A DNA stretch of 64,000 bases, from positions 5,584,501-5,648,500 of the forward strand of contig NZ_AP023243.1 in assembly GCF_016756495.1 (NCBI RefSeq), in the 5' to 3' direction. A program made the translations under genes and the position numbers. Positions 3,955 to 63,486 of this stretch are shown one piece after another (position 1 is the stretch's first letter; every line of letters begins with the position of its first letter). The notes below the pieces were generated by a model, which saw nothing but the letters and a program-made list of their open reading frames with translations, had not been told where the DNA came from and did not search any database. The DNA comes from Mesorhizobium sp. 113-3-3. GTDB taxonomy: Bacteria; Pseudomonadota; Alphaproteobacteria; Rhizobiales; Rhizobiaceae.

Positions 3955-5023
3955 GGGCGGTTTCGACCCCGCCTCACTCGTCCAGTCCTGGCCAAAACCT
4001 TCAAAACCCCGTCCGATCGTCACTTTCGGTGCCGGGTCGATCGTCGGCGACGCGCATTTTCCCGCCTACCGCAAAGCGGACTTTCCGATTGCCGGTCTTT
4101 ATGATCCGGACCAGGCCAAGGCGAAGATGCTGGCCGAGAAATGGGGCGTGACGGCGTTCCGCTCCATCGACGAAGCCACGGCGGTCAAGGATGCGATCTT
4201 CGACCTGGCAACGCCTCCGGGACGGCACGCCGAGATCCTGAAATCTCTGCCGGACGGTGCGGTCGCATTGATCCAGAAGCCGATGGGCAACTATCTCGGC
4301 GAGGCAACCGAAATCCTCGAAATCTGCCGCGCCAAGGAACTCAAGGCAGCAGTCAATTTCCAGTTGCGCTTCGCGCCGATGATGCTGGGGCTCAAGGATG
4401 CCATCGCCAAGGGCTGGCTCGGCGAGGTCGTCGATTTCGACGCCTGGCTGGCGCTGTCGACGCCGTGGGAATTGTGGGAGTTCCTGCTCAAGGCGCCGCG
4501 CGTCGAGATCGCCATGCACTCGATCCACTATCTCGACCTCATCAGGCAATTGCTCGGCGATCCCAAGGGCGTCCACGCCAAGACGCTCGGCCATCCCAAT
4601 CACAAGGTGGCGCAGACGCGCACCAGCGCCATTCTCGACTATGGCGACACCGTGCGCTGCGCGCTGTCGATTAACCACGACCACAAGTTCGGCCGCCGGC
4701 ACCAGGCCTGCGAGTTCCGCATCTGCGGCACGGAGGGGGCGGCCTATCTCAAGCTCGGCCTCAACCTCGACTATCCCCGGGGCGAACCGGACATATTGGA
4801 AATCCATCCGAAGGGCGGAACGGACTGGATTGCCGTACCGCTCGCCGGCGAGTGGTTCCCCGACGCTTTCGTCGGGCGCATGGCCAATGTACAGCGCTTC
4901 GCCACCGGCGAGGACGATGCGCTGGTCAGTTCGGTCGAGGACGCCTGGAACACCATGGCGCTGGTGGAAGCCGCCTATAGATCGAGCGCAGCGCCGGCGA
5001 CACCGATCGCGGAAAGACCCTGA
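3947..5023 (+). CDS. Gfo/Idh/MocA family NAD(P)-dependent oxidoreductase
   Basis: Probable sugar or inositol-type dehydrogenase of 358 residues. A Rossmann fingerprint GAGSIVG is at residues 28-34, and the family's EKP motif appears as QKP at 110-112, a conservative variant. The C-terminal half has the alpha/beta dimerisation domain of the family. The ATG at 3947 overlaps the end of the mutarotase gene by eight bases and gives an N-terminus that leads directly into the Rossmann strand; upstream in-frame codons would lie deep inside that gene. The substrate is likely the free sugar or a derivative made in this operon. Confidence 0.88.
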
Positions 5024-5469
5024 TGGAACAGATCACCTATTTCGAGGACTACGAGATCGGCTCTTCGCGGCTGACCAGCGGCCGCACCATCACCGAGACC
5101 GACTTCATCGTCCATGCCGGCCACACCGGCGATTTCTTCCCGCACCACATGGACGCCGAGTACATGAAGACGACGCCGTTCGGCCAGCGCATCGCGCATG
5201 GCACACTGGTGTTCTCGGTCGGGGTCGGCTTGACAGCGAGCATCATCAACCCTGTCGCCTTCTCCTATGGCTATGACCGGCTGCGCTTCGTCAAGCCGGT
5301 GTTCATCGGCGACACGATCCGCACACGCACCACCATCACGGCCAAGGAAGACGATCCCAAGCGGCCGGCTTCGGGACGCGTGATCGAGCGCTGCGAGGTG
5401 ATCAACCAGCGCGGCGAGGTCGTGCTCGCGGCCGACCACATCTACATCGTCGAACGCAAGCCGGCCTAA
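5023..5469 (+). CDS. MaoC-type (hot-dog fold) dehydratase
   Basis: 148-residue single hot-dog domain of the MaoC / R-specific enoyl hydratase family. The hydratase D-x4-H motif appears as D37-FFPH-H42, followed by an acidic DAEY segment. The start overlaps the oxidoreductase stop (TGATG), so it is translationally coupled as the last gene of the operon. A MaoC dehydratase is unusual beside sugar-acid enzymes, where thioester chemistry is not expected. It may act on a free hydroxy acid or on a CoA ester formed later. The next gene converges only 11 bp away. Confidence 0.85.
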
Positions 5470-56680: not shown

Positions 56681-57487
56681 TTATCGATATTTCGGAAACG
56701 TGTTGCCGGCCGGCGCGTTGGCCCAGCTCTGCAAGGTCTGGCCGCCGTCGATCAGCCAGTCGACGCCGGTGACGTGCCTTGCCTCATCCGAGGCGAGGAA
56801 GGCCACGGCGGCCGCGACATCGTCCGGCTGGCCGACGCGGCGCAGCGGGATGCGGTCGGCGAAATGCTGGACGCTGCTCTTGAAATCGCCGTCGCCGGAG
56901 GCCGGCACGCCGAGCGTCGTCTCGATCACACCGGGGCAGATGGCATTGACGCGGATGCCATAGGGCGCGGCATCGAGTGCGGCGACCCGCGTCAGCCCGA
57001 CCACGCCATGCTTCGAGGCGACATAGCCGGCACCGCCGGTAAGCACATCCCAGCCCGCCATGGACGATCCCATATTGACGATCGAGCCGCCAGTCCCGGC
57101 CTTGATCATCGCTTGGAGCGACGCCTGCAGGACGAGGAAGATGCCGCGCAGATTGATGCGAATGATGGTGTCCCAATCCTCGACAGGCAATTCGTGCACG
57201 GGAGCAACGACGCCGGAAATGCCGGCATTGTTGAAGACCACATCGAGCCCGCCCAATGTCTCGACTGTGGTTTCGACGGCGCCGCGCACATCCGTCTCGT
57301 TGGTGACGTCGGCTTCGATGGCGATGGTGTTGTCGCCGAGAGAGCCAGCGAGTTCCCGGGCGGCAGCCCCGTTGCGATCGACGATGGCGACCCGCGCGCC
57401 CTCATCGAGGAAGCGCCGGACCGCGGCGCTGCCGATGGCGCCGGCGCCGCCGGTGACAAGAATCCTCTTCTGGTCGAACCGCTTCAT
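56681..57487 (-). CDS. Short-chain dehydrogenase/reductase
   Basis: 268-residue classical SDR. TGGAGAIG is the cofactor motif, with NNAGISG, active-site YVASKHG, and CPGVIETT. ATG 57487 overlaps the epimerase stop (ATGA), so the two are coupled. The extra upstream frame runs inside the epimerase gene and is ignored. It is the second gene of the minus-strand pair that begins at the shared 19-base element, and is expected to oxidise a sugar-like or cyclic alcohol. Confidence 0.87.
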   Translation of the reverse strand: MKRFDQKRILVTGGAGAIGSAAVRRFLDEGARVAIVDRNGAAARELAGSLGDNTIAIEADVTNETDVRGAVETTVETLGGLDVVFNNAGISGVVAPVHELPVEDWDTIIRINLRGIFLVLQASLQAMIKAGTGGSIVNMGSSMAGWDVLTGGAGYVASKHGVVGLTRVAALDAAPYGIRVNAICPGVIETTLGVPASGDGDFKSSVQHFADRIPLRRVGQPDDVAAAVAFLASDEARHVTGVDWLIDGGQTLQSWANAPAGNTFPKYR

Positions 57488-58338
57488 CCCTCGGTCTCCG
57501 GCTTTGGGTAGGAACGCCATGAATGCTCCGGCGCGAAGCCGAGCGTCTGGCGCGCATGGACCGTGTCCAGCACGGAGCTGAAGCCAGCGATCGGCCGGGA
57601 CAGTGCGACGCCTGGATAGGCGCGGCGCACCAGCGCCTCGGTCTCCTCCTCTATGAAGGTGTCGGCGGCGCTGAGCAGGACGCGCAGATGACCGTCGCCT
57701 TGCCATTCCATTGCCCGCAGGAAACCCTGCCCGGCGTCGCGCGCGTCGAGATAGGCCCACAGGTCGCGGGCGCTGTCGGCGGTGGCGCGGCGCGGGCCGA
57801 CGCCGGCGAAGAAGGATTGCGGGGTCTGTATCCAGGGCATGCGGATGCTGACCGCCGAGAAGGCGCCGCGGCGCACCGCCGCGTCGACGATTTCCTCACC
57901 CAGCCATTTCGACAGGCCGTACGGATCCTGCGCGCCGACCGGGTGGTTCATGTCGACCGGCAGGTAGGGCGGAATGACCGTCTTCTCGAAGAAAGGATAG
58001 CCGAAGACGCTGAAGGACGAGGCATAGACGAAGCGCCCGATACCGGCCATGGCAGCAGCCTCGACGACATTGTAGGCGGTCGCGACATTGGTGTTGAACA
58101 CCTCGCCGCCGGCACGCCCGGTCGGCCGCGGAATGGCCGCGACATGCACGACGGCATCGCAATCGCGCACCAACTGCAGGGTCGACCCAAGATCCGTCAG
58201 GTCGGCGGTGGCGTGCCGCCATGCACCCCCGGGCGGCGCCACGGTATCGATGCCCAGCACATCATAGCCGGCGGCAAGCAGAGCCTCCGCCACATGACGG
58301 CCAAGCAGGCCACTGGCGCCGGTGACGATCGTCTTCAT
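57484..58338 (-). CDS. NAD-dependent epimerase/dehydratase (extended SDR)
   Basis: 284 residues. The extended-SDR motif GASGLLGRHV is at the N-terminus, and the catalytic YGLSK follows HPVGAQDP. Size and motif set resemble uronate dehydrogenases and small sugar-nucleotide epimerases. It starts 36 bp from the shared regulatory element, and a TTGACA lies further upstream on the minus strand. It is probably part of the same regulon as the amidohydrolase and DUF1185 genes. Confidence 0.85.
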   Translation of the reverse strand: MKTIVTGASGLLGRHVAEALLAAGYDVLGIDTVAPPGGAWRHATADLTDLGSTLQLVRDCDAVVHVAAIPRPTGRAGGEVFNTNVATAYNVVEAAAMAGIGRFVYASSFSVFGYPFFEKTVIPPYLPVDMNHPVGAQDPYGLSKWLGEEIVDAAVRRGAFSAVSIRMPWIQTPQSFFAGVGPRRATADSARDLWAYLDARDAGQGFLRAMEWQGDGHLRVLLSAADTFIEEETEALVRRAYPGVALSRPIAGFSSVLDTVHARQTLGFAPEHSWRSYPKPETEG

Positions 58339-58373: not shown

Positions 58374-58392
58374 AATATCATTGATGGTCATA
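58374..58392 (-). promoter_or_regulatory. Shared regulon element, copy A
   Basis: Read on the minus strand this is TATGACCATCAATGATATT, 17/19 identical to copy B at 62389-62407. It contains the small dyad TGA-N3-TCA. A -35-like TTGACA is 27 bases upstream (58425-58420, minus strand), and the epimerase ATG is 35 bases downstream. It is a probable operator for the MarR protein encoded nearby. Confidence 0.7.
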
Positions 58393-58539
58393 CAAATCGA
58401 GCACATGGTTGCCACCCCTTGTCAAGGCCATATCGCGCCGGACAAATAGCGCATACGCTTCTCGCAGCGGCGTGCGCAAGCCCGCTGACTACTGCTTAGC
58501 GCCGGACGGGATTGACTTGGCACCCGCCAGGGTTTTTTG

Positions 58540-58558
58540 TATGAGCATCAACGATCGA
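58540..58558 (+). promoter_or_regulatory. Shared regulon element, copy C
   Basis: TATGAGCATCAACGATCGA matches the first 15 bases of copy B at 14 positions and keeps TGA-N3-TCA. It is 15 bases before the isochorismatase-like gene start, downstream of a TTGACT hexamer (58512-58517). An ATG inside the element (58541) is in frame with the gene but lacks a ribosome site. This would give autoregulation of the MarR gene, which is in the same operon. Confidence 0.6.
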
Positions 58559-58573
58559 CCAAAGGAGTCCGCC

Positions 58574-59218
58574 ATGGCCGTGGACGTTTTTTCCTCACAT
58601 CGGCACGATGACGCGATGCGCCTTGATCCGAAGCGTGCAGCCATTGTCGTCATCGACATGGTCAACGAATTCTGCAAACCGGGCGGGGCCATGGTGCTGC
58701 CTGGATATGAGACGCTGGTCGGGCCGCAACTGGCCGTCATCGAGGCGGCGCGCGCAGGCGGCGTGCCGGTGATCTGGGTTCACGACGCGCACCGGCCGGG
58801 CATGCGCCGCGAGCGCGAATGGGTGAAGCGTACGCCACACTGCCTGGAAGGCAGCTGGGGACCGGAGATCATCGAAGATCTTGGCGCCCGCGATGACGAG
58901 ATCCACGTCATCAAGCGGCGCTATTCGGCCTTCTTCCAGACCGACCTCGACCTGACACTGAAGGACATGCAGATCGACCAGTTGGTCATCTTCGGCGTGG
59001 TCACCAACATCTGCGTGCGATCGACTGTCCACGACGCGTTTTTCCAGGGCTATGAAGTGGTGGTGCCGAGCGATTGCTGCGCGGCGACCGGACCGCGCGA
59101 ACAGGAAAGCTCGCTCTACGATATAGCGACGCATTTCGGCGTGGTCAGCGATTCGGCTGATGTCGTCGCGGCGCTTCGCGATGGGGCGTCGCTGCAACCG
59201 ATCGAAGTCGCGGCTTGA
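58574..59218 (+). CDS. Isochorismatase-like cysteine hydrolase
   Basis: 214 residues. The amidohydrolase triad is complete: D28 (VVIDMVNEF), K114 (VIKRRYSAF) and C147 (VTNICVRST), with the cis-peptide region VVTN. Such enzymes hydrolyse amides like maleamate, N-carbamoylsarcosine or ureido compounds. AAAGGAG stands before ATG 58574. It starts the plus-strand operon with the MarR and enamidase-like genes and would suit a late ring-opening amide intermediate. The substrate is not fixed by sequence. Confidence 0.88.
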   Translation: MAVDVFSSHRHDDAMRLDPKRAAIVVIDMVNEFCKPGGAMVLPGYETLVGPQLAVIEAARAGGVPVIWVHDAHRPGMRREREWVKRTPHCLEGSWGPEIIEDLGARDDEIHVIKRRYSAFFQTDLDLTLKDMQIDQLVIFGVVTNICVRSTVHDAFFQGYEVVVPSDCCAATGPREQESSLYDIATHFGVVSDSADVVAALRDGASLQPIEVAA

Positions 59219-59262
59219 ACCATTCAGGGCCCGGCGTGCGACACAGGCAACAGGAGTCCGGT

Positions 59263-59811
59263 TTGACGACCGAAAAGAAATCCAAGAAAAGCGCGACGGC
59301 GAAGCAGCCGGACGGCAATGCGGAACCATTGAGCCGCGAGCAGGTGCTGGAGCGCTACGCCGAGACCGGATACGCGTTGGACCTGCACCCGGCGCATATC
59401 ATCCGCAAGGCACATCAGCGCGCGACGCTGCGTTTCCAGCAGGTCATGGCCGGCGAGGACCTGTCGCCGACCCAGTTCGCGGCCCTTGCCACGATCCTCA
59501 AGCATGGCGAGGTCTCGCAGAACCATCTCGGCCGGCTGACGGCGATGGATCCGTCGACCATCAGCATCGTCATGCGCAAGCTGCTCAAGCACGGGCTGAT
59601 CACGCGCAGCGCTTCCGACACCGACCAGCGCCTGTCGATGATCGCGCTGACCGAAAAAGGCACCGAATACACGCTCGAGCGGCTCGCGCGCAGCGTGGAG
59701 GTCGGACGCCGCTTTCTGTCGCCGCTGTCACCCGCCGAGCAGACGACGCTGCTGCGCCTGCTCAAGCGCATCAATGACGACGATCCATCGAATGGCGACG
59801 GCGGCAAGTAA
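59263..59811 (+). CDS. MarR family transcriptional regulator
   Basis: 182 residues with a winged helix-turn-helix (TQFAALATILKHGEVSQNHLGR, then DPSTISIVMRKLLKHGLITR). A lysine-rich N-terminal tail precedes it. The likely start is TTG 59263, with CAGGAG six bases upstream, giving MTTEKKSKK; the TTG at 59215 has no ribosome site. It is probably the repressor acting on the TATGACCATCAA element found at each promoter of this region. Confidence 0.85.
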   Translation: MTTEKKSKKSATAKQPDGNAEPLSREQVLERYAETGYALDLHPAHIIRKAHQRATLRFQQVMAGEDLSPTQFAALATILKHGEVSQNHLGRLTAMDPSTISIVMRKLLKHGLITRSASDTDQRLSMIALTEKGTEYTLERLARSVEVGRRFLSPLSPAEQTTLLRLLKRINDDDPSNGDGGK

Positions 59812-59851
59812 GCCGCGCCAAGACCTTCCAGATCAGCAGAAATGAGAACCA

Positions 59852-61045
59852 ATGCCCTCCGACCCCAAGTCGTCTGCCAACACGCTCGTCATCCGCAATA
59901 TCGGACTGCTGCTGAGCGGTGACCTCGGCCAGCCGATCCTGGATGCCGATACCATCGCCGTGGCGGAGGGACGCATTACGGGCATTGGCAAGGCAGGCGA
60001 CGTCGACGGCGGCGATGCGGCGACGATCATCGATGCGATGGGCTGCGCTGTGGCGCCGGGGCTCATCGACAACCATGTCCATCCGGTAGCCGGCGACTGG
60101 ACGCCGCGGCAGAACCAGATCGGCTGGATGGATTCGACCGTGCATGGCGGCGTCACGTCGATCATTTCGGCGGGTGAGGTCCACACGCCGGGCCGGCCGC
60201 GCGACCTGGTCGGGCTGAAGGCGTTGGCGATCGCGGCGCAGCGGACTTTTTCCAACTTCCGGCCCAACGGCATGAAGATCCTGGCCGGCGCCCCCATCCT
60301 GGAACACGGCCTGGTCGAGGATGACTTCCGGTACCTCGCCGAAGCCGGCGTGACACTCATCGGCGAGGTCGGACTTGGCGGCGTCAAGGATGGTCCGACC
60401 GGCCGGCAGATGATCGCCTGGGCGCGCAAATACGGCATGACCTCGATGACCCATACGGGCGGCCCTTCCCTGCCCGGCTCCGGCCGCATCGGCGCCGATG
60501 TGGTGCTGGAGGTCGACGCCGACATCGTCGCCCACGTCAATGGCGGACCGACGGCACTTCCCGAAGCCGAGATCCGGCAGATCTGCGAAAACGGCTCGCG
60601 TGCGCTGGAAATCGTCCATAACGGCAATCTGCGCACCGGCTTGTTCGTGCTCGACCTGGCCAGGCAGCGCGGCGAGCTTTCACGCGTCATCCTCGGCACC
60701 GACAGCCCGGCCGGGTCCGGCGTGCAGCCGCTCGGCATCCTGAGGACGCTGACCATGCTGGCGTCGCTGGGCGGCATTGCGCCGGAAGTGGCGTTCTGTC
60801 TCGCCAGCGGCAACACGGCGCGCGTGCGCGGCCTGACCGACCGTGGCATCATCGACGTCGGCCGCGCCGCCGACCTGATCTTCATCGATCAGGCGATCGG
60901 CGGCGCCGGTGACGGACTGCTTGACAGTGTCTCGCTTGGCAATCTGCCGGGCATCGGCATGGTCGTCATCGACGGCGAGGTGCGGACCGGCCGCAGCCGC
61001 AACACCCCGCCGGCCATGCGCGTGCCGGAGGTCAGGGCCGCGTAG
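59852..61045 (+). CDS. Amidohydrolase, enamidase-like
   Basis: 397-residue member of the amidohydrolase superfamily. H75 and H77 (DNHVHP) begin the metal site, with E172 (GEVGLGG), H201 (THTGG), H228 (AHVNGG) and D284 (GTDSPAG). The Glu bridge in place of a carboxylated lysine and these motifs are as in enamidase of nicotinate fermentation, which opens 6-oxo-tetrahydronicotinate. Together with the isochorismatase-like enzyme it implies hydrolytic opening of a cyclic amide. It converges with the DUF1185 genes 15 bp away. Confidence 0.82.
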   Translation: MPSDPKSSANTLVIRNIGLLLSGDLGQPILDADTIAVAEGRITGIGKAGDVDGGDAATIIDAMGCAVAPGLIDNHVHPVAGDWTPRQNQIGWMDSTVHGGVTSIISAGEVHTPGRPRDLVGLKALAIAAQRTFSNFRPNGMKILAGAPILEHGLVEDDFRYLAEAGVTLIGEVGLGGVKDGPTGRQMIAWARKYGMTSMTHTGGPSLPGSGRIGADVVLEVDADIVAHVNGGPTALPEAEIRQICENGSRALEIVHNGNLRTGLFVLDLARQRGELSRVILGTDSPAGSGVQPLGILRTLTMLASLGGIAPEVAFCLASGNTARVRGLTDRGIIDVGRAADLIFIDQAIGGAGDGLLDSVSLGNLPGIGMVVIDGEVRTGRSRNTPPAMRVPEVRAA

Positions 61046-61060
61046 CGGCCTTCGCTGGCA

Positions 61061-61645
61061 TCAGCTCACACCGTCGACCCCGACGATACTTTCCTTGGTC
61101 AACCCGCCGACGCGCGCGTGCGGCCTGCCGGAATCGGTGACGGCGATGGCGACGACGATCTCGTCGGCGCGCGGCGCATCGGGGACACGGACCTCCATGC
61201 CGTCGAAATGGCTGCGCACCTTCGCCGCATCCTTGTGGCCGAGCGGAATGTCGAGCGGCACGCCGAGGCCGCCGCGCTTCTTCGACGAGGGAATGAGCGC
61301 GGCGCCCTTGCCCAGCACATCGCGGAACGGCGCGCCGAGCTTTGGATGAAGGATGGCGGCGGCATGTTCGAGTTCGCCGTCGGCGCCGACCGCGGCGGCC
61401 TTGCCGAAGCTCTCGACCTGATCGCCGGCAATGCCAAGCGCCGCCACCGCCCGCCTGGGCAGGATGTCGCCCAGGGCTTCGCCGATATCGACCAGCACCG
61501 ACAGATTCTCGGCAAACACGCCGGCATAAGGGTTGCGGATCACCGCGATGGCCGCGGCACGCCGAGTCGGCGGGTCGACGGGGCGGCCGCCTTCGATCCG
61601 GGTTTCCTCGACGATGTTGATGATGCGGCGGATTTCCGCGCTCAT
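61061..61645 (-). CDS. Amino acid synthesis (DUF1185) family protein, second of a tandem pair
   Basis: 194 residues. The sequence shows a regular alpha/beta pattern with conserved NPYAG, GAALIPSSKK (Lys-rich loop), PDAPRADEIVV and RPHARVGGL. The family (AA_synth, Pfam PF06684) has structures but no established reaction. The ATG overlaps the stop of its paralogue (ATGA). The two copies share length and all motif blocks, suggesting an ancient duplication and perhaps a heteromer. A catabolic role beside an enamidase is inferred from context. Confidence 0.85.
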   Translation of the reverse strand: MSAEIRRIINIVEETRIEGGRPVDPPTRRAAAIAVIRNPYAGVFAENLSVLVDIGEALGDILPRRAVAALGIAGDQVESFGKAAAVGADGELEHAAAILHPKLGAPFRDVLGKGAALIPSSKKRGGLGVPLDIPLGHKDAAKVRSHFDGMEVRVPDAPRADEIVVAIAVTDSGRPHARVGGLTKESIVGVDGVS

Positions 61646-62226
61646 CGCAATCCGTCCTCGCCCTTGATGTCGGCCGCCGCCAGGCCGCCGACCCGCGCAT
61701 GGATGCGCGGGCCGGTCGTCATCGCCAGGATGACCGCCATCTCGTCGCTGCGCGGCGCATCGCCAACGCCGATCTCGATCGCGTCGAAATGGCTGCGCAC
61801 ATAGGAAGCGTTGATGTGGGTGATCGGAATGTCGATGCGCGTTCCAGGAGCCCCGACCTTCTTGGTCGAGGGTACGATAGCCCTGGCGTTGCCGAGCAGC
61901 TCGCGCATCGCATAGCCACCCGGATTGTGCCAGAGCGCGCCATGTTCAAGCTCGCCGGCGGCACCGACGATGGCTCCCTTGCCATAGCCTTCGACAGCGG
62001 CGACGCCACCGCCCATGGCATCGATCAAGCGCCGCGCCATTTCCAGGCCGAGCGGCTTCAGATCTTCCATGAAGCCAGTGATCTCCTCGACGTAACGTCC
62101 GGCAAAGGGATTGGCGATGACGGCGACGATCGCGCCCCGCTTGAGCGGATGTGCCGCGGGCGGCCCGCCTTCATGGAAGACCTCTTCGACCTGGACCAGA
62201 AATTTCCTGACCACCACAGCTGGCAT
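61642..62226 (-). CDS. Amino acid synthesis (DUF1185) family protein, first of a tandem pair
   Basis: 194 residues when started at ATG 62226 (MPAVVVRKF), exactly matching its paralogue; the ATG at 62250 has no ribosome site, whereas AAGGAT lies ahead of 62226. Motifs parallel the partner: NPFAGRYV, RAIVPSTKKVGAPG, DAPRSDEMAV, RIHARVGGL. It is transcribed divergently from the BMP-type binding protein gene, with a weaker copy of the shared element in its promoter region. Function unknown. Confidence 0.85.
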   Translation of the reverse strand: MPAVVVRKFLVQVEEVFHEGGPPAAHPLKRGAIVAVIANPFAGRYVEEITGFMEDLKPLGLEMARRLIDAMGGGVAAVEGYGKGAIVGAAGELEHGALWHNPGGYAMRELLGNARAIVPSTKKVGAPGTRIDIPITHINASYVRSHFDAIEIGVGDAPRSDEMAVILAMTTGPRIHARVGGLAAADIKGEDGLR

Positions 62227-62279
62227 TGCGCGTATCCTTCGTCCCGTCATTCATGAAAACTCGTTAGAGTATCAACAAT

Positions 62280-62296
62280 TATGCATCACCGATATT
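62280..62296 (+). promoter_or_regulatory. Possible shared regulon element, weak copy D
   Basis: TATGCATCACCGATATT is related to copies A and B if two bases are removed from their centre: CATCACCGATATT agrees with CATCAATGATATT at 11/13. It lies 54 bp upstream of the first DUF1185 gene, next to a minus-strand TTGACA (62302-62297). The two-base deletion breaks the TGA-N3-TCA dyad, so this copy is uncertain. Confidence 0.35.
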
Positions 62297-62357
62297 TGTC
62301 AAGCACCGCGGTAAGAGGATGCCAATGACAGGCCCGGAAAACTGCATCGGATGACGA

Positions 62358-62386
62358 TTGACAGCCTGTCGGGCCGCTCCTAAACT
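62358..62386 (+). promoter_or_regulatory. Sigma-70-type promoter of the BMP-type transporter genes
   Basis: TTGACA (62358-62363) and TAAACT (62381-62386) are separated by 17 bases, close to consensus. Copy B of the shared element starts three bases after the -10 and would cover the transcription start, a classic repressor position. The binding-protein ATG is about 95 bp downstream. Confidence 0.65.
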
Positions 62387-62388
62387 CA

Positions 62389-62407
62389 TATGACCATCAA
62401 CGAAATT
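62389..62407 (+). promoter_or_regulatory. Shared regulon element, copy B
   Basis: TATGACCATCAACGAAATT, 17/19 identical to copy A on the other strand at 58374-58392. It contains TGA-CCA-TCA. It overlaps the expected transcription start of the promoter at 62358-62386, so binding should block initiation. Confidence 0.7.
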
Positions 62408-62481
62408 GCCAGCATTCCGGCGGTGTGTGAGGATGGTCAAGGCGTGGCTTCAAAAGCTGAAAAAAGCTGAAGGGGAATGAC

Positions 62482-63486
62482 ATGAAAAGGGCGCTCAAGA
62501 GTTTATTTCTGGCCGGCACGATGCTGGCCGTTTCGTTGGGGTCGGCCGCCGCACAGGCCAAGGTTTCGGTGGCCGCCATCTCAGGATATTTCGCACAGGG
62601 CTTTGGCGTTTCGATCGTCAACGGCCTCAACAAGGCCAAGGCCGATTTCGGCATCGACCTCAAGCTGGTCGACACCGGCAATCGCGCCTTGGACTATGAG
62701 GAGCAGTTCGAGAACCTCGCCAAGGGCAAGCAATACGACCTCATCTTCGTCATGGGCTGGGAGCTGGTGGATTCGCTGCAGAAGGTCAGCAAGAAATATC
62801 CCGACCAGCGCTTCGTCTTCATCGATGGCGTGCTCGACAATCCCAAAATGATCTATGCCAACTTCGCCGAGGAACAGGGCTCCTTCGTCGCCGGCGCGCT
62901 CGCCAGCATGATCGAGGCCAAGGGCAGTGAATTTCCCAAGATCGGCGACGGCAAGGCAATCGGCTTCGTCGGCGGCCGCGACATCCCGGTGATCCGCAAT
63001 TTCCTTGGCGGCTATGAGCAGGGCGCCAAATACGCCGCGCCCGATGTGAAGGTGAACTCCGTCTTCGCCGGCACCTTCGATGACCCGGCCAAGGGCAGCG
63101 AGCTCGCCCAGGCGCTGTACGGCCAGGGCTCCGACATTGTCTACAACGTCGCCGGCCCGACCGGTGAAGGCGTGATGCAGGCCAGTGCGGCCGCCGACAA
63201 ATATTCGATCGGCGTCGATATCGACATGTGCGGCACGGCTCCCGGAAATGTGCTCGGCAGCATGCTGAAGCGCGGCGACATCGCCGTCTATACGCTGATC
63301 AAGGATGAGGTCGGGGGAAACAAGGTCACAGCCGGCACCCGCACCTTCGACCTTGCATCGGGCGGCGTCGAGTTCAAGGTCTGCGACGACATCGCGCCGA
63401 AGATCCCGGCCGACGTGACCACCAAGCTCGACGAGATCAAGAAGGGCATCCTCGACGGCAAGATCGTGATCGCCAAGGCGAAATAG
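62482..63486 (+). CDS. BMP-family ABC transporter substrate-binding protein
   Basis: 334-residue periplasmic receptor of the basic membrane protein (PnrA/Med) family, whose known ligands are purine nucleosides and related compounds. Signal peptide to about residue 26 (LGSAAAQA-KV), with no lipobox cysteine. Conserved patches are GYFAQGFG, VMGWELVDS, NFAEEQGSFVAGALA and VGGRDIPVIRNFLGGYEQG. AAGGGGAA precedes the ATG. It is followed by an ABC ATPase of the matching type, so this is a nucleoside-class importer, here tied to the enamidase/DUF1185 genes. Confidence 0.9.
   Translation: MKRALKSLFLAGTMLAVSLGSAAAQAKVSVAAISGYFAQGFGVSIVNGLNKAKADFGIDLKLVDTGNRALDYEEQFENLAKGKQYDLIFVMGWELVDSLQKVSKKYPDQRFVFIDGVLDNPKMIYANFAEEQGSFVAGALASMIEAKGSEFPKIGDGKAIGFVGGRDIPVIRNFLGGYEQGAKYAAPDVKVNSVFAGTFDDPAKGSELAQALYGQGSDIVYNVAGPTGEGVMQASAAADKYSIGVDIDMCGTAPGNVLGSMLKRGDIAVYTLIKDEVGGNKVTAGTRTFDLASGGVEFKVCDDIAPKIPADVTTKLDEIKKGILDGKIVIAKAK

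Follow-up and report, generated by a model that had tools for sequence, protein, structure and literature searches.

The 64,000-nt stretch of the Mesorhizobium sp. 113-3-3 genome analyzed here (the window; contig NZ_AP023243.1, positions 5,584,501 to 5,648,500) carries a gene cluster made up of an epimerase and short-chain dehydrogenase (SDR) unit, an isochorismatase-marR-enamidase operon, a pair of AA_synth (PF06684) genes of which aas1 is the first, and a transporter unit beginning with the BMP/PnrA-type substrate-binding protein gene bmp (Table 1). An initial annotation had described a repeated 19-base element at the promoters of these units and proposed that it links all four to one MarR-family regulator. 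The repeated element is real, and its sequence features make it a strong candidate operator. Control of the four units by one MarR regulator is supported by the sites, their conservation, and their co-occurrence with marR, and from these we infer that the MarR protein is what binds them.

The three good copies are present with the letters originally given, at the epimerase, isochorismatase-marR, and BMP transporter promoters, and their agreements of 17/19 and 14/15 were reproduced. The 19-mer has two copies within three mismatches in the window and none in 100 dinucleotide-preserving shuffles. For the 15-mer there are three perfect copies, all at the places already described, and six with three mismatches, giving nine in all, a number reached by 0 of 100 shuffles, against 2.9 expected. 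The frame of the 19-base repeat was wrong: alignment of both intergenic regions placed the start three bases further upstream and gave TTGTW-N8-AACRA, an imperfect palindrome of 18 bp, as the conserved unit. Two other details of the initial annotation had to be abandoned. TGA-N3-TCA, described there as kept in the three good copies, is not the symmetry of the element; its counterpart is AGA-N3-TCA or similar in the AA_synth sites and TTGTTAGACCATCAACAA in Bosea and Kaistia. The "shorter relative" at 62280-62296, taken as a fourth copy, is a mere gapped likeness, with 20 variants among 21 loci, several of them carrying a deletion, and a mean major-base frequency of 0.80 that is no better than the background of 0.82 in other intergenic columns; the true fourth site (operator 3 in Table 1) adjoins it.

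Table 1. Genes, candidate operators, and -35-like boxes of the cluster (window positions)
Feature	Position	Strand	Remarks
Short-chain dehydrogenase	56681..57487	-	overlaps epimerase gene
NAD-dependent epimerase	57484..58338	-	PF01370; first gene of epimerase-SDR unit
Isochorismatase-fold cysteine hydrolase	58574..59218	+	best solved match RutB ureidoacrylate amidohydrolase
MarR-family regulator, predicted repressor	59263..59811	+	PF01047, PF12802; start codon by eye
Enamidase homologue	59852..61045	+	PDB 2VUN, E 4.9e-109
AA_synth (PF06684) protein 2	61061..61645	-	domain match
AA_synth (PF06684) protein 1	61642..62229	-	first gene of its unit
BMP/PnrA-type substrate-binding protein	62482..63486	+	first gene of transporter unit
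Candidate operator 1, TTGTATGACCATCAATGA	58378..58395	-	epimerase-SDR promoter
Candidate operator 2, TTGTATGAGCATCAACGA	58537..58554	+	isochorismatase-marR-enamidase promoter, autoregulatory position
Candidate operator 3, TCGTTAGAGTATCAACAA (as + strand)	62261..62278	.	AA_synth pair promoter
Candidate operator 4, TCATATGACCATCAACGA	62386..62403	+	over expected start of BMP transporter promoter
-35-like TTGACA, epimerase promoter	58420..58425	-	24 nt from operator 1; conserved in alignment
-35-like TTGACT, isochorismatase promoter	58512..58517	+	19 nt from operator 2; invariant in alignment
-35-like TTGACA, AA_synth promoter	62297..62302	-	18 nt from operator 3; conserved in alignment
-35-like TTGACA, BMP promoter	62358..62363	+	with TAAACT 62381-62386, 17-nt spacer, a near-consensus promoter

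The alignments comprised 22 loci for the first intergenic region and 21 for the second, the window included. The second is without L002 and L045, in which the BMP gene is not reached, and includes L042, a Mesorhizobium metagenome-assembled genome excluded from the first for its longer intergenic region, which has ~245 extra bases (4866-5288) between the divergent sites 1 and 2, both of them intact. The closest named relatives that we found belong to Mesorhizobium. The initial annotation had made its proposal depend on retention of the element upstream of orthologous genes, and retention was complete: four sites within one mismatch of TYRTWWGASYAYCAAYRA are found in 20/20 named relatives holding both intergenic regions, with 2 of the 80 sites mismatched, and across families the element tracks marR. 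Operator columns have mean major-base frequencies of 0.967 and 0.978, compared with 0.840 and 0.817 in the other intergenic columns. The operator arms shift toward TTGTT..AACAA in Aminobacter and L049. Symmetry is perfect, AGATTGTT-N8-AACAATCT, at the site that precedes aas1 in Bosea, Kaistia, and Mesorhizobium sp. BR1-1-16, with the Bosea and Kaistia copy forming a 24-bp inverted repeat. L047 has an additional one-mismatch match (10414) beside its bmp site. L045 stops short of the BMP side and could show only two of the four sites; L051-L053, without the epimerase gene, have one site each, before aas1, their fetched stretches ending short of the transporter promoter. No site was found in L055, a Treponema locus (35% identity over part) not counted as a cluster holder.

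Two further features were noted in these loci. The ~50 bases directly before bmp (62429-62481; GATGGTCAARGCG..AAGCTGAAAAAAGCTGAAGGGG) are strongly conserved in the Mesorhizobium loci, a conservation that does not extend to the two Aminobacter loci or L049. A frame of 15 residues (MVKAWLQKLKKAEGE) could be encoded there, but it is broken by indels in two relatives and has no stop in one. In M. ciceri WSM1271, ~1 kb of extra DNA lies between the enamidase and AA_synth genes (L041:7776-8858).

A -35-like box stands upstream of the sites. A scan of 14 loci (211 kb) for sites within two mismatches of TTGTWNGANNATCAACRA returned 34 sites compared with none in ten shuffles, the consensus having been drawn from those same sites. 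TTGACA or TTGACT stands upstream, facing a cluster gene, at 34/34 sites, 17-24 nt away at 33 of them and 13 nt away at one (the distance for window site 2 was read directly from the window sequence), whereas in the opposite direction, used as a control, at most four of the six box letters agree at 33 sites and five at the remaining one. MarR repressors usually use a short inverted repeat over the -10 box and start, and the distance from box to site in the cluster means that the operator covers the -10/start region, which is repressor geometry. The initial annotation was right that one copy covers the expected start of a near-consensus BMP promoter, where operator 4 begins on the final base of the -10 box. 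Since an operator also stands before the operon containing marR, autoregulation is implied. As sequence, then, an inverted-repeat site is present both at target promoters and at the regulator's own operon, in the manner of a MarR regulator with candidate binding sites.

The element is rare. Within one mismatch, the TYRTWWGASYAYCAAYRA pattern occurs in exactly four places in the 7.73-Mb genome of the strain, all in the cluster, compared with one for the pattern read backwards, so that the random scatter through the genome that would have spoken against the initial annotation was not seen. A stricter first pattern gave 22 places within three mismatches compared with 2 for its control. Among these were 17 matches with three mismatches and two with two mismatches outside the cluster (L106 and L107), the latter two being inspected in context as possible extra targets: one falls between two open frames, the other within a mechanically called open frame, in its 5' part; both differ from the family pattern by more than one mismatch, and their surroundings reveal no link to the cluster.

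Across genomes, the element and marR occur together. Among 37 genomes of the genus, a MarR orthologue is present in six (E 5e-98 or better, the next best match being 6e-22), and all six have four or five exact sites, compared with 0/31 of the others. In 397 genomes of the order, with the site search and the MarR search taken as one draw, an exact site was found in 16/18 genomes with a MarR match of E 1e-45 or better and in 12/379 others (Fisher p 3e-19); with the threshold at E 1e-30 the counts are 16/21 and 12/376. Searching the order by site gave nine genomes with three or more exact sites, and 9/9 have the MarR orthologue. Six of the 12 genomes with an exact match and no close orthologue belong to one family of small genomes. 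Matches were inspected in 3 of the 12: in two small genomes they lie inside a RelA/SpoT-like gene (named by eye), and in G042 (L105) the match falls between open frames and has no link to the cluster.

Where gene order has changed in other families, operators stand at the new promoters. The sbp/bmp promoters carry them in G257, G379, G366, and G339; G122 has them at icm/sbp and bmp/aas1, G293 at icm/epi and aas1, and G403 has a single site at icm/sbp. In Kaistia and Bosea, the operator lies before aas1, behind a monooxygenase-like gene. Further units appear to have joined the regulon. A unit encoding a sugar-type ABC transporter with IolE-like and Gfo-Idh proteins carries the operator in G031, G033, and G014, and the sbp gene of the sugar-type transporter unit does so in G257, G379, G366, G339, G122, and G403. 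Four genomes (G134, G164, G257, and G310) have a further exact site at least 60 kb from marR or on another contig, which in the two inspected, G257 (L155:2008-7198) and G164 (L156), marks the same locus. Its gene families, scanned in G257, include an acyl-CoA dehydrogenase, one of whose best matches is a glutaryl-CoA-dehydrogenase family (210 of 470 bits), and a protein like succinate-glutarate CoA-transferase (604 bits, cut-off 750). This distal locus adjoins one desaturase-like and one Rieske-like gene (both named by eye) and a ferredoxin-reductase-like gene.

On this evidence the element is, with high probability, the operator of the MarR protein encoded in the window, which would repress four promoters and respond to a compound of the pathway as inducer; the repression and the nature of the inducer we infer along with the binding. 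A MarR dimer would bind the inverted repeat of 18 bp, or up to 24 bp, at the -10/start region of the four promoters and block RNA polymerase, also at its own promoter. Release of MarR would be brought about by a pathway substrate or intermediate that enters via the BMP transporter, and uptake and breakdown would then be switched on together.

The protein itself fits such a role. Its winged-helix domain is recognized by PF01047 (E 2.9e-12) and PF12802 (E 5.8e-12), both over their cut-offs, and by solved MarR proteins; among the named NCBIfam MarR families, 16 matched and none reached its cut-off (HpaR, 37 of 121 bits), scores so far below the cut-offs that no such family name applies. An owner of the operator encoded elsewhere, controlling the cluster in place of MarR, seems unlikely. 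Such an owner could be imagined because linkage of sites and marR is no proof that MarR is the binder, most of the compared loci were found through marR, so that its presence there is by construction, and a LysR-like gene (named by eye) lies ~10 kb beyond (L101:10070-11014). Three observations favor MarR instead: the search by site alone recovered its orthologue in every genome with three or more exact sites, marR alone among ten window genes scanned encodes a DNA-binding domain, and all 12 cluster loci compared have the recognition helix DPSTIS[IL]V.R.L, which is altered in seven homologues of 36-50% identity from genomes that contain no exact site. Two distant MarR homologues (47-48% identity; L161 and L162) have a PF06684 gene within ~1 kb and no site within two mismatches; elsewhere, PF06684 genes may therefore be paired with a sister regulator that uses another operator.

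Several observations weigh against operator function or against assigning it to MarR. The operator windows are not the most conserved of their regions, ranking 22 and 9 of 219 and 14 and 7 of 236; the -35 boxes and the stretch before bmp are among the other conserved intergenic stretches. A good -10 box is present at the BMP promoter only, those of the other three being poor by eye, which makes their +1 less sure. The left arm of operator 4 is weak (TCATA), and the inner eight operator bases are conserved yet asymmetric, a feature that a simple dimer model leaves unexplained. The shuffle control of the promoter scan shares the circularity of its consensus, and because the cluster holds both marR and the sites, its presence accounts for part of their counted co-occurrence. 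G122 and G293 have the orthologue and no exact match, with sites within two mismatches of the consensus present, and in G403 a separate enamidase-AA_synth unit (L163) has no site within two mismatches.

The likeness among copies could instead be one of coding, each copy starting a short upstream frame (MTIND.., MSIND.., MTINE..), perhaps of a leader peptide. ATG-ACC/AGC-ATC-AAY-GAW is indeed found in all three good window copies, and there is overlap between the first of these frames and the epimerase start. The alignment of relatives rules this out to within a very small residual probability: the epimerase copy lacks the ATG in both Aminobacter loci and in L049, where its letters are TTTGACC and its palindrome is nevertheless improved; indels interrupt the frames further downstream; and the AA_synth copy has no such frame. 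Chance or recent functionless duplication is equally improbable; exact matches do arise by chance, as in the 12 of 379 genomes without a close orthologue and the two RelA/SpoT-like genes, but corresponding promoters in different genera and families keep the element despite divergence of the flanks, which contradicts that origin, as does the element's restriction to four places in the genome.

The genes behind the candidate operators point to a catabolic pathway. Past the window (L101), the transporter unit continues with the rest of an ATPase gene, two permease genes, and two nucleoside hydrolase genes, the first product best matching cytidine/uridine-specific hydrolase and the second matching RihA and RihC below cut-offs. 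The enamidase homologue is related to the solved enzyme over its full length, residues 12-393 of 397 aligning to 2VUN. Beside the regulon on the minus strand (L101:5647-8669) are S-formylglutathione hydrolase-like and trimethylamine-dehydrogenase-like genes (named by eye); no exact operator match was found in L101.

In its regulation the system resembles the MarR local repressors of catabolic clusters, HpaR and PcaV (4fht), both of which were among the matches: a MarR winged-helix protein is encoded in its own presumed target operon, the inverted repeat lies over the core promoter, and the targets are catabolic; what differs is the target set. NicR is another MarR-family local repressor of a catabolic cluster. 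Enamidase, whose reaction is the hydrolysis of 6-oxo-1,4,5,6-tetrahydronicotinate, is a step of nicotinate breakdown, a pathway that runs from nicotinate to glutarate in Azorhizobium. The operon amidohydrolase aligns nearly full length to the solved enamidase, and the operator in G257 and G164 precedes glutaryl-CoA-dehydrogenase-like and succinate-glutarate CoA-transferase-like genes. Nicotinate hydroxylase and 6-hydroxynicotinate reductase were not seen among the cluster genes examined, no search having been aimed at either, and the BMP importer and two nucleoside hydrolases found here are not needed by nicotinate itself.

A PF06684 protein also occurs in the ring-breakdown clusters for trigonelline (Tgn) and 7-hydroxycoumarin (Hcd), where HcdD is likened to TgnF and no effect of HcdD could be demonstrated (PMC7913881). 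The cluster described here differs in having two tandem PF06684 genes, together with nucleoside hydrolases and an enamidase homologue. A PF06684 structure paper suggests amino-acid metabolism instead (PMC2954203). Neither isochorismatase nor Mesorhizobium is mentioned in the available passages of PMC5343134. In searches of the open-licence literature on MarR, PF06684, enamidase, trigonelline, and BMP, neither this operator nor the regulon was described in the titles and first lines returned, an absence that carries little weight.

What the MarR switch controls is probably the import and degradation of a nucleoside-like compound. Because glutarate-CoA-type genes lie behind the same operator in two genomes, the most economical guess is a nucleoside with a base that the enamidase opens and that is finally converted to glutarate. 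More tentatively, and with rather less than even confidence, we propose that the regulon is an undescribed route for a pyridine-type nucleoside, such as nicotinate or nicotinamide riboside, from import to glutaryl-CoA. After import by the BMP transporter, the two nucleoside hydrolases would cleave the N-ribosyl bond, the isochorismatase-fold enzyme would hydrolyze the amide, and the enamidase with the two PF06684 proteins would open the ring, yielding glutarate and then glutaryl-CoA. The freed sugar would be handled in relatives by the co-regulated sugar transporter/IolE/Gfo-Idh set, and one MarR protein would sense an intermediate and control the whole pathway.

A local MarR repressor with its operators is ordinary in kind, and the likely pathway is the interesting part. 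The analysis offers a precise candidate operator and regulon for an uncharacterized MarR protein, and it gives two PF06684 proteins of unclear role a place in a pathway. Since nearly every unit carries the candidate operator, the genes that form one system can be recognized by it, among them, in some genomes, a glutarate-CoA-type locus distant from marR, and the substrate is narrowed to a compound that is imported like a nucleoside and may end as a five-carbon diacid.

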